NCBI RefSeq assembly: GCF_039645585.1
Contig: NZ_CP147915.1
Coordinates: 558,001 to 622,000 of the forward strand
DNA: 64,000 bases
Direction of reading: 5' to 3'
Source: Sulfurimonas sp. HSL-1656
GTDB lineage: Bacteria; Campylobacterota; Campylobacteria; Campylobacterales; Sulfurimonadaceae
This document shows, in pieces, positions 21,869-24,491 of the stretch. Positions within the stretch are counted from its first letter, which is position 1; each line of letters opens with the position of its first letter. The notes under the pieces are model-generated. The model saw only the letters and a list, made by a program, of their open reading frames with translations. It did not search any database and was not told where the DNA came from. The translations under genes were made by a program, and so were the position numbers.

Positions 21869-22829
21869 AATGATCCGGGTGGGCATAAAGATAGGGACGG
21901 ACGGCCGCCCCGATGCCCAGCACCCGGCATGACTCCCGGAATGATTTGGGCATGCTGCCTTCTGCTATCGGCGTTACAATAGCACAGCGTGGTGTGATGC
22001 TCAAGGCATAGCGGCGTCCCAGCACCAGATTGTCTTCGGCCAGTATCCGCTCTTTTTCCCCCTGTCTCAGCAGATACCCCTGCCGCTTCAGCCAGCGGTC
22101 GACGGTACGCATCAATGCCGCACGTTCCAACGACCCGGTTAACATCAGGAAGTCCGAATCAATAACGGCTTCAGGCAGCGGCGCCAGGGCCGCGGCATCG
22201 CGGCTGAGAAATGCAAACGAGTTTCTGATCCCGCTTTGGAACTGCTCAAGCAGCGGTGCGGCATGCTGCGTACGGAAACGGTTACGCGTGTGGCGCGGGT
22301 CGCGGTTGGAAGCGTCTTCAAAGTAGCGGTATCCGTGTGCATCCAGCCAGGCCCGAAGGTCGTTTTTACCGGTGTCAAGCAGGGGACGGACCAGCCGGTA
22401 GCCTTCCCGGTCAGTGACAGGGGCCATCCCCAGCAGCTCGGGGAGCCCGGCGCCTTTGCACAGCTGCATCAGCAGCCACTCCAGCCGGTCATCAAGCTGG
22501 TGTGCGGTCAGCAGGACGTCATAACCGTGTGCCTCCATCAACGTGTCGAAGAAACCGTACCGGATACGGCGGGCCTCCGCTTCGAAGTTTTCGGAGATCT
22601 CGCCGCTGTCATGAACGTGGCACTGTTTGCCGTACTGTGCGGCGAGCGCGCGGGCATGGTCGGCTTCCGCATCGCTCTGTTCACGGGTATGATAGTTGAC
22701 GTGGGCGATATCGAAAGGGACCTTTTCGTGCAGCAGCAGGTAAAAGAGGGCGGTGGAGTCAATGCCGGCGGAGAACGCCAGCAAATTTTTCCCCTTGGCT
22801 AGGAACGGAAGGGTCCGGGGATCAAGCAT
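21816..22829 (-). CDS. tilS: tRNA(Ile)-lysidine synthase TilS
   Basis: 337 residues. It attaches lysine to C34 of the minor tRNA-Ile so that it reads AUA. The PP-loop ATPase motif is FSAGIDSTALF (Ala in the usual SGGxDS), followed by IAHVNYHTREQSDAEADHA and LTAHQLDDRLEWLLMQLCKGAGL, the TilS HxxDD and substrate regions. The C-terminal tRNA-binding extension is short, as common in this phylum. It is co-directional with rimO upstream (8 bp overlap). Confidence 0.92.
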   Translation of the reverse strand: MLDPRTLPFLAKGKNLLAFSAGIDSTALFYLLLHEKVPFDIAHVNYHTREQSDAEADHARALAAQYGKQCHVHDSGEISENFEAEARRIRYGFFDTLMEAHGYDVLLTAHQLDDRLEWLLMQLCKGAGLPELLGMAPVTDREGYRLVRPLLDTGKNDLRAWLDAHGYRYFEDASNRDPRHTRNRFRTQHAAPLLEQFQSGIRNSFAFLSRDAAALAPLPEAVIDSDFLMLTGSLERAALMRTVDRWLKRQGYLLRQGEKERILAEDNLVLGRRYALSITPRCAIVTPIAEGSMPKSFRESCRVLGIGAAVRPYLYAHPDHFTAVREKLAAAAGEARK

Positions 22830-24141
22830 GGCCCGTAACGGTCGCCGTCAGTGTCTCACCGACAAGCTCCATGATCTTGGCGCGGTAGGGTACGCCGAAA
22901 GAGAGCTCTTCGTCGAGGGCGTTGTCGTTGACATAGATCTCGCCGTCGATCTCCGGGGCCCAGCGCAGGTCGCGTGCGCTGAGGAGGTATTCATGTTCGT
23001 CGCTTTCGCCGTCGATGACGAGGGTGATTTCACTGCCGACCATCTTCTGCAGGGAAGCGAGTTTCGCCTCTTCGGCAATAGCGCCCAGGATCTCGGCACG
23101 CTCTGCAATCGTCTCCGCGTCGACCTTGTCGGTGCGCTCAAAGGCGCTTGTGCCCTCCTCGTCGGAGTAGGCGAAGACGTTGATGCGGTCAAAACCGAAG
23201 GTGCGGGCGTAATCGCACATCGCCCGGAAGCTCTCCTCCGTTTCGCCCGGGTGGCCGACGATGAAGCTGGTACGTACGAAACGCTCCGGCAGCTTGCGCA
23301 TGTAGTCGAGCAGTTTCTCAGTCTGTTCCCGGCCGGCACCGCGTTTCATAATCTTGAGCATGCCGTCGTCGATGTGCTGGATCGGCATATCGAAGTAGTT
23401 GTGGAAGGTTTTCGACTTCGCGATCGTCTCCAGCAGTTTCATCGATGTCGTCGTCGGATAGAGGTAGAGGATGCGGGCACTTCTGACCCCTTCGATCAGC
23501 TCGACGCGTTTGATGAGCTGGATGAGCCCGTCTTTGAAACCCTGGTCGCGGAGGAAGGAGCTGGAGTCCTGGGAGATGAAACTGAAGTCGTAATACCCCT
23601 TCTTTACAAGCCCCTCGACCTCGGCGGCGATGCTCTCCAGCGTCCGGGAGTGGAGCTTACCTTTGAAGGAGGGGATGGCGCAGAACGAACAGCTCTGGTT
23701 GCACCCCTCGGAGAGTTTGACATAGGCGTGATAGGTCGAGCCCGTGACGACGCGCTCGGCACCGTCGATCAGGTAGACCTCGTCGCTGAAGCGGCTCTGT
23801 TTTGCTGCCAGGAGTTCATCGATCTTGTCATAGTCGCCGACACCGGTGAAGATGTCGACCTCGCTGAGCTCTTTGCTCAGTTCTTCCTTGTAGCGCTCGC
23901 TGAGGCAGCCGGCCATGACGAGGACAGAGTCCTCCTTGCGGGAAGCATCGAGGCTCAGGACCGTATTGAGGGACTCTTCCTTGGCCGCGTCGATAAAGCC
24001 GCAGGTGTTGACGATGATGACGTCGGCATCTTCGCTCTCCTGGGTCAGTTCGTACGATTGTAGCCGTCCCATCATGACTTCGGTATCCACGAGGTTCTTG
24101 GTGCACCCCAACGAGACGATATGCAGTTTTTTTGTACTCAT
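22822..24141 (-). CDS. rimO: Ribosomal protein S12 methylthiotransferase RimO
   Basis: 439 residues, radical-SAM enzyme that methylthiolates an aspartate of ribosomal protein S12. UPF0004 cysteines are in VSLGCTKNLVDTE, VNTCGFIDAAKEE and MAGCLSERY; the radical SAM motif is SEGCNQSCSFCAIPSFKG, where CAIPxxxG separates it from MiaB. The C-terminal TRAM domain reads VGSEITLVIDGE to LSFGVPYRAKIMEL. ATG at 24141 is chosen; the frame is open to 24216 but that would enter the promoter. TATAAT candidates on the minus strand lie at 24185-24190 and 24199-24204. Confidence 0.94.
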   Translation of the reverse strand: MSTKKLHIVSLGCTKNLVDTEVMMGRLQSYELTQESEDADVIIVNTCGFIDAAKEESLNTVLSLDASRKEDSVLVMAGCLSERYKEELSKELSEVDIFTGVGDYDKIDELLAAKQSRFSDEVYLIDGAERVVTGSTYHAYVKLSEGCNQSCSFCAIPSFKGKLHSRTLESIAAEVEGLVKKGYYDFSFISQDSSSFLRDQGFKDGLIQLIKRVELIEGVRSARILYLYPTTTSMKLLETIAKSKTFHNYFDMPIQHIDDGMLKIMKRGAGREQTEKLLDYMRKLPERFVRTSFIVGHPGETEESFRAMCDYARTFGFDRINVFAYSDEEGTSAFERTDKVDAETIAERAEILGAIAEEAKLASLQKMVGSEITLVIDGESDEHEYLLSARDLRWAPEIDGEIYVNDNALDEELSFGVPYRAKIMELVGETLTATVTGHA

Positions 24142-24184: not shown

Positions 24185-24204
24185 ATTATAATTACGCAAT
24201 TATA
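24185..24204 (-). promoter_or_regulatory. Putative rimO promoter
   Basis: The minus strand reads GCTATAATTGCGTAATTATAATAAAG, with two overlapping TATAAT candidates (24204-24199 and 24190-24185), 44-58 bp before the rimO ATG. It abuts the structured element that begins at 24211. Confidence 0.45.
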
Positions 24205-24210
24205 GCGAAA

Positions 24211-24479
24211 GGGCACCTCTAAAGACCCTGCACGGTCTCAGCGCTGCAGAGAAAAGTCATAATCAAGGCGACGCTTTGAAAACCTGGCTGTAGCCAAGTC
24301 GAAAAGCGGCAACGCCGGGTATGGCTTTTCTCTGCAACGCCCTTGGGGAGGGCTTTTGAAGCATGATCTTTCCTCCATTTTCTTCTGGACTTAGCTACGG
24401 CTAGGCCTGCGCAGAAAACAAAGAAAATCTCACGCTTCAAAAATCCTCTGAGATCCGTACAGGGTTTTTAGAGTTGCCC
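24211..24479. repeat. 269-bp element with terminal inverted repeats and two nested stem-loops (MITE- or REP-like)
   Basis: The ends 24211-24241 and 24448-24479 are inverted copies of each other (31 and 32 nt; three substitutions and one 1-nt bulge). Inside are two further inverted pairs: 24241-24258 with 24323-24340, and 24350-24373 with about 24421-24446, each closing on a small palindromic tip (TGGCTGTAGCCA about 24285-24296 and a TAGC/GCTA pair about 24385-24396). It lies between the divergent rimO and flavoprotein genes and ends just before the latter's RBS. A degenerate piece recurs at 38661-38713. No open frame inside looks coding. Confidence 0.7.
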
Positions 24480-24491
24480 GAAAGGGGACGC

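Follow-up and report, generated by a model that had tools for sequence, protein, structure and literature searches.

The 269-bp element between rimO and a flavoprotein gene in the window, i.e., the whole stretch of 64,000 nucleotides analysed here, is a MITE. This assignment is firmly supported, as the element is short and non-coding, has TIRs and a target duplication, occurs in dispersed copies and has its ends in common with an autonomous transposon. Overall, the best explanation, and one we consider likely, is a MITE movable in trans by IS5-family transposases, with hairpin arms and an interior conserved in its fold. The surprising part is this conserved, strand-polar interior of two arms, together with the presence of its core in other MITE families. 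Features of the locus:

24211..24479, no strand assigned: whole element, a MITE of 269 bp, precisely delimited by the empty sites and seen in further genome copies
24207..24210, no strand assigned: left target-site duplication GAAA, a single GAAA at the sisters' empty site (L271, L274)
24480..24483, no strand assigned: right target-site duplication GAAA, overlapping the flavoprotein ribosome-binding site AAAGGGG
24211..24242, plus strand: left TIR, the 5′ side of outer stem P1; its first 18 nt are the IS5-family TIR GGGCACCTCTAAARACCC
24448..24479, minus strand: right TIR, the 3′ side of outer stem P1
24237..24342, plus strand: arm A, a hairpin of ~100 nt, from the match of model R1 (G000:582237-582342, E 6e-18) and covariation
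24264-24269 (CAAGGC) and 24311-24314 (AACG), plus strand: invariant core AGGC...AACG of arm A
within arm A: tip hairpin CCTGGC-TGTA-GCCAAG
24340..24347, no strand assigned: short CCC/GGG stem linking the two arms in the centre, invariant in 49–50 of 50 sequences
24350..24452, minus strand: arm B, related to arm A in inverted orientation, of the same polarity on the minus strand and matched by R1
24187..24192, plus strand: TATAAT, from its sequence the probable −10 box of the flavoprotein gene, kept at the empty sites
22822-24141, minus strand: rimO, the divergent neighbour
24492 (GTG start), plus strand: HI0933-like flavoprotein gene, the other neighbour

The initial annotation had given exactly these coordinates for the element, which begins with GGGC at 24211, ends with GCCC at 24479 and has GAAA on either side. 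It had also correctly placed the element between divergent genes, identified here as rimO on the minus and the flavoprotein gene on the plus strand, and next to the ribosome-binding site of the latter: the Shine-Dalgarno sequence AAAGGGG follows immediately 3′ of the element, the site being preserved through the target duplication. The uninterrupted site was found in three sister genomes (L271, L273 and L274; L271 reads ...CAATTATAGCGAAAGGGGACGCGTGGAG), where GAAA is single in L271 and L274 and CGAAA is found also in L273, as opposed to GAAA-element-GAAA in the window. Since the window copy is missing from close sister genomes, its insertion is recent.

Further copies were found both in the own genome (2.56 Mb, one contig) and in relatives, 35 of 120 of which gave an element match. 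The own genome contains seven full-length copies including the window copy; others lie at 431958, 317448 (inverted), 1701535, 1526229 and 410327, and one at 478093 has a degenerate arm A. A perfect 4-bp target duplication flanks 54 of 111 copies, about half being without one, compared with a mean of 9.1 and a maximum of 19 for a null in which flanks were shuffled between copies. The enriched length is exactly 4 bp, with boundaries GGGC and GCCC, and the targets of the family (TTAA, TAAA, TTTA and similar; consensus TWWA) are AT-rich. The MITE-like mobile repeat originally suggested is borne out by the empty site, the 4-bp duplication, the dispersed copies and the IS5-family ends.

The own genome also contains several TIR-only remnants, e.g., at 512343 and 1611446. 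At G000:1611446-1611475 (L017), a 40-bp TIR hairpin stands where the sisters L019 and L021 carry the full element and is an internal deletion product. Other TIR-only hairpins or half-TIRs lie at G000:641632-641678, 1626387-1626438 and 512343-512360, the last one just upstream of a yajC-like gene, and relatives have many TIR-TIR hairpins of 36–56 bp with intact 4-bp duplications. Three old copies of the own genome (L004, L005, L006) have TIRs which are much changed yet mutually symmetric (e.g., GGGTGRCTCTCATTCCCC), while their arms are well conserved; these copies look as if different transposases had moved one interior.

The end sequence GGGCACCTCTAAAAACCC of the element is that of IS5-family insertion sequences. 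In plasmids, the TIR matched the start of annotated IS5-family transposase genes from Sulfitobacter (L170) and Lactococcus (L171). In Campylobacterota, the TIR GGGCACCTCTAAAAACCC was found on both sides of three IS5-family transposase genes related to that of the plasmids (L172, L173, L174), whose products have the Pfam domains DDE_Tnp_1 and DUF772, and the L174 insertion sequence has TTAA at both sides. No IS-like gene is present within the 269-bp element, and no IS5-type transposase (PF01609) was found in the own genome or in 8 genomes of the genus. From the recent window copy and the lack of such a transposase in the genus, we infer that the element was mobilised in trans by an IS5-family transposase, probably of a transient IS5-family element. 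The TIR alone gave no useful match in the phage collection, the whole element none in the plasmid and phage collections, and the arm model none in five IS-bearing loci, the insertion sequences being without arms. A literature search returned no paper containing the TIR string.

An outer inverted repeat of 31–32 nt, closing a stem with two inner stem-loops, had been described from the sequence, and our folding analysis agrees with it. The ends pair over ~32 nt with few mismatches, and two long imperfect hairpins lie inside. On the plus strand, the fold has −132 kcal/mol compared with −83 ± 5.6 kcal/mol for shuffles (z −8.8), on the minus strand −146 kcal/mol (z −11.2), and 0 of 200 shuffles folded as well as the element on either strand. 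Likewise, the element had been said, by eye, to resemble no known RNA family, and Rfam 15 gave no family at gathering threshold; a permissive search gave one weak metazoan miRNA model. No intrinsic terminator was found in the element, and a single promoter-like match was marginal.

The fold is maintained in the family as a whole. We took 116 unique full-length copies from 120 TIR-matching loci plus relatives; 103 of them are 266–271 bp long, and the mean identity is 66% (minimum 45%). Abundant two-sided compensatory changes are seen in the outer stem and in both arms (93 non-redundant copies, mean identity 66%), i.e., the paired arms covary across homologues. With further copies present and the arms covarying, both checks named in the initial annotation turned out in its favour. 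The pairing consensus (105–107 pairs, 50 sequences) was built from Watson-Crick pairs alone and thus favours neither strand. More than 85% of its cells are Watson-Crick, and many single columns swap between CG, GC, AT and TA with pairing intact in 49–50 of the 50 sequences. Changes from one Watson-Crick pair to another, counted on the tree, amount to 101 in the outer stem, 207 in arm A and 157 in arm B, where those in P1 can also stem from ends following one transposase, or from template switching. Fold, length and the internal-loop core persist over several Campylobacterota families; the ends vary in old copies. Some variants are longer: L066, L103 and L161 (292 bp) have a 24-bp insert (GCACCC..GGGYATTTCCTTTGGTCAG) close to an arm tip, and L062 and L147 (308 and 326 bp) a palindromic insert of ~45–50 bp (GGATATCTCCTA..TAGGAGTAAAGT) within arm A. 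These inserts are possibly a second, nested small element.

At orthologous fixed insertions, a comparison of small numbers with genomes partly common to the comparisons, we counted nine A.C, seven other mismatches, four gaps, five G.T, two one-sided Watson-Crick differences and one double change. As these differences are mostly one-sided and disruptive, the fold appears to be maintained in the lineage of mobile copies rather than for a host function of individual insertions; the orthologous copies show no sign of a host-level function at a fixed site.

The relationship between the two arms was assessed with R1, a covariance model of 104 positions derived from arm A only, in which the core AGGC...AACG is invariant. 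R1 also matches arm B on the opposite strand, with E 5.6e-4 to 0.14 in the own genome and weakly (E 0.03) in the window copy. The arm A match of the window copy (E 6e-18) was obtained although this copy lay outside the 15 training sequences of A3. In other genomes, R1 strongly matches both arms, paired on opposite strands and a few bases apart. Arms detected by R1 occur in 34 of 249 Campylobacterota genomes and in 18 of 56 genera. Arms A and B are related to each other in inverted orientation. This goes beyond the initial annotation, as does the recurrence of the arm core in other MITE families described below.

Selection for pairing within a single-stranded molecule should leave G.T(U) tolerated over A.C on the strand in question alone. 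Wobble events were counted on the tree for each arm with copies re-oriented; pooling misoriented copies gave 111:106, and the bias became clear after re-orientation and per-arm, tree-based counting. GT and AC events number 87/38 in arm A and 41/70 in arm B (Fisher p 5.7e-7 for the contrast), while the outer stem P1 has no bias (54/45). The direction in arm A was repeated in three disjoint clades (31:15, 32:17, 24:4), that in arm B in two of three (14:30 and 8:21; the other was flat, 20:21). Transitions in unpaired columns number 66:64 in arm A and 113:85 in arm B, the latter running the opposite way, and the lack of a matching transition bias argues against a mutational cause of the wobble polarity. 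The G.T-tolerant strand reads CAAGGC...AACG in each arm and hence lies on opposite strands for arms A and B.

It seems reasonably probable, on these patterns, that the arms are selected as single-stranded hairpins, presumably RNA, and that the inverted pair gives one correct sense per transcript. Of the gene pairs around the copies, 46 are tandem, 21 divergent and 9 convergent, and no preferred orientation to neighbouring genes was found (23 same, 23 opposite). With random insertion orientation, an inverted pair of arms would ensure that every transcript contains one hairpin in the right orientation, and working in either orientation may be the reason for having two arms.

The proposed mechanism would run as follows. 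IS5-family transposases would recognise the ends of the element, and insertion would take place at an AT-rich 4-bp target with duplication of the latter. Selection would act on each arm in the form of a single-stranded hairpin, presumably of RNA, with the polarity 5′-CAAGGC...AACG-3′, so that whichever way an insertion is transcribed, one arm hairpin would be in the correct sense. A host RNA factor, e.g., RNase III, might bind or cut this sense hairpin, a step we regard as conceivable but rather doubtful. With such RNase III-like handling, insertions in leaders and operons could be tolerated, and the element would persist more easily. A biochemical function of the arms, including RNase III processing, is suggested by analogy to Correia elements.

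An ordinary MITE would consist of palindromic filler between transposase-binding ends, the arm pairing being kept not by selection but by a mutational process, i.e., template switching or the repair of hairpins during replication. Template-switch correction readily affects large palindromes, and both the balanced wobble of P1 (54 GT : 45 AC) and the symmetric variant TIRs of old copies fit such a process. However, the asymmetric internal loops CAAGGC and AACG, which homogenisation would erase, are invariant across divergent arms, the wobble is strand-specific in each arm, the core is also found in MITEs with other ends, and orthologous copies show no correction in place. We therefore consider filler unlikely.

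The arms could alternatively act as single-stranded DNA hairpins in transposition or replication, e.g., on the non-transferred strand, instead of as RNA. Wobble polarity cannot tell RNA from single-stranded DNA, in which G.T is better tolerated than A.C too. Signs of selection come from the mobile lineage, with hardly any at fixed sites, and both arms have like polarity relative to their own end, which would equally suit DNA hairpins. On the other hand, exposure of such strands is not known from IS5-type DDE transposition, and IS5-family elements with these ends carry no arms, so that we give little credence to a DNA role.

The initial annotation had also considered a structured leader, of which only the position stands. 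From the sequence, the element appears to sit in the 5′ leader of the flavoprotein gene, between the TATAAT box and the ribosome-binding site, and would thus form a leader of ~280 nt there. This position and the strong RNA fold speak for a cis-acting structured leader or riboswitch, which is nevertheless highly improbable: three sister genomes have the flavoprotein gene without the element, copies elsewhere lie beside unrelated genes in random orientation, and Rfam gave no match. A conserved flavoprotein leader is ruled out, as the element has no fixed gene association or orientation; a locus-specific effect on flavoprotein expression is possible. The REP-type element of the initial annotation, i.e., a REP/BIME moved by a RAYT (Y1) transposase, would likewise be intergenic, palindromic and repeated, but has next to no probability in view of the long, true TIRs, the 4-bp target duplications and the IS5-family partners of DDE type.

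The RNA-hairpin MITE favoured here shares its core with other small transposons. R1 matched single-arm elements with other ends (TIR TAGAGTGTGTTTCTAAA) in a Clostridia genome; these (L296, L299, L301) form a MITE family in a sheep duodenum MAG with a very similar core hairpin. An IS5-ended Deltaproteobacterium element (L137) was matched with E 0.003. Among eight stretches picked solely by the Correia TIR, R1 gave five matches, each of them in register on a Correia element, with E-values, which are rough, of 5e-4 to 0.07; the core of these elements reads CAAGGCG...GCAGAC...GGCAACGCCG. No R1 match at E up to 1 was obtained for hairpin elements lacking the core (L084, L104, L125, L127), so that hairpin shape alone is not sufficient for a match. 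The foreign elements L137 and L296 had no match in plasmids, and we found no paper on a MITE core common to families.

One Saprospiraceae (Bacteroidota) genome contains a second family with the same IS5-type ends, in a form of ~160 bp with an AGGCG...AACG hairpin (L055/L118) and one of ~86 bp without it (L104/L127). The core of L055 and L118 is visible by eye and was not matched by R1. Two R1 matches from Saprospiraceae (L295, L298) were dropped, since they lie in apparently coding sequence.

The core common to the element and Correia may be due to either descent or convergence. A broader reading, which we put forward tentatively, is that one hairpin module with the core CAAGGC...AACG has spread across phyla in MITEs with unrelated ends and acts as RNA, its two inverted copies in Campylobacterota serving either orientation. 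In that tentative reading, the ends would be IS5-type in Campylobacterota, Deltaproteobacteria and Saprospiraceae, a different TIR in Clostridia and Correia ends in Neisseria.

In the usual view, bacterial MITEs are derived by deletion and have filler as their interior. In the element, the interior is conserved in fold, length and core. The presence of the core in Correia elements connects MITEs so far regarded as unrelated and points to a shared cause for the persistence of some small elements. Whether the hairpins act as RNA in both orientations can be tested concretely through the strand-specific wobble, for which the element and its IS5 partner form a compact system.

Among known systems, RUP of Streptococcus pneumoniae and ERIC of enterobacteria are likewise short mobile repeats of intergenic regions whose transcripts fold, and for RUP an IS transposase has been proposed as the mobilising enzyme (PMC2229807). 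According to a published table, they differ in having TA-associated ends and no evidence of two inverted arms; they are set apart here by description. Correia elements (CREE/NEMIS, Neisseria) are, like the element, MITEs with TIRs and a folding transcript, and their core hairpin is matched by the arm A model. In mRNA they are reported to be bound and cut, or protected, by RNase III (PMC2649163; PMC2229807), and they have been reported from Neisseria only, with the mobilising enzyme unknown (PMC2649163). Their own ends are TATAGTGGATTAA... with TA at the termini, whereas those of the element are GGGCACCTCTAAA..., with a 4-bp duplication; they are about 105 or 155 bp long with a single core hairpin, the element having two inverted arms. 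The element thus has the core hairpin of Correia, but neither the 26-bp Correia repeat ends nor the TA target. With IS5-derived MITEs, it has in common the TIR and the 4-bp AT-rich duplication of the IS5-family insertion sequences found here. While the interior of a typical MITE is regarded as a remnant of its parent IS, the arms of the element are not IS-derived and are kept over the family.
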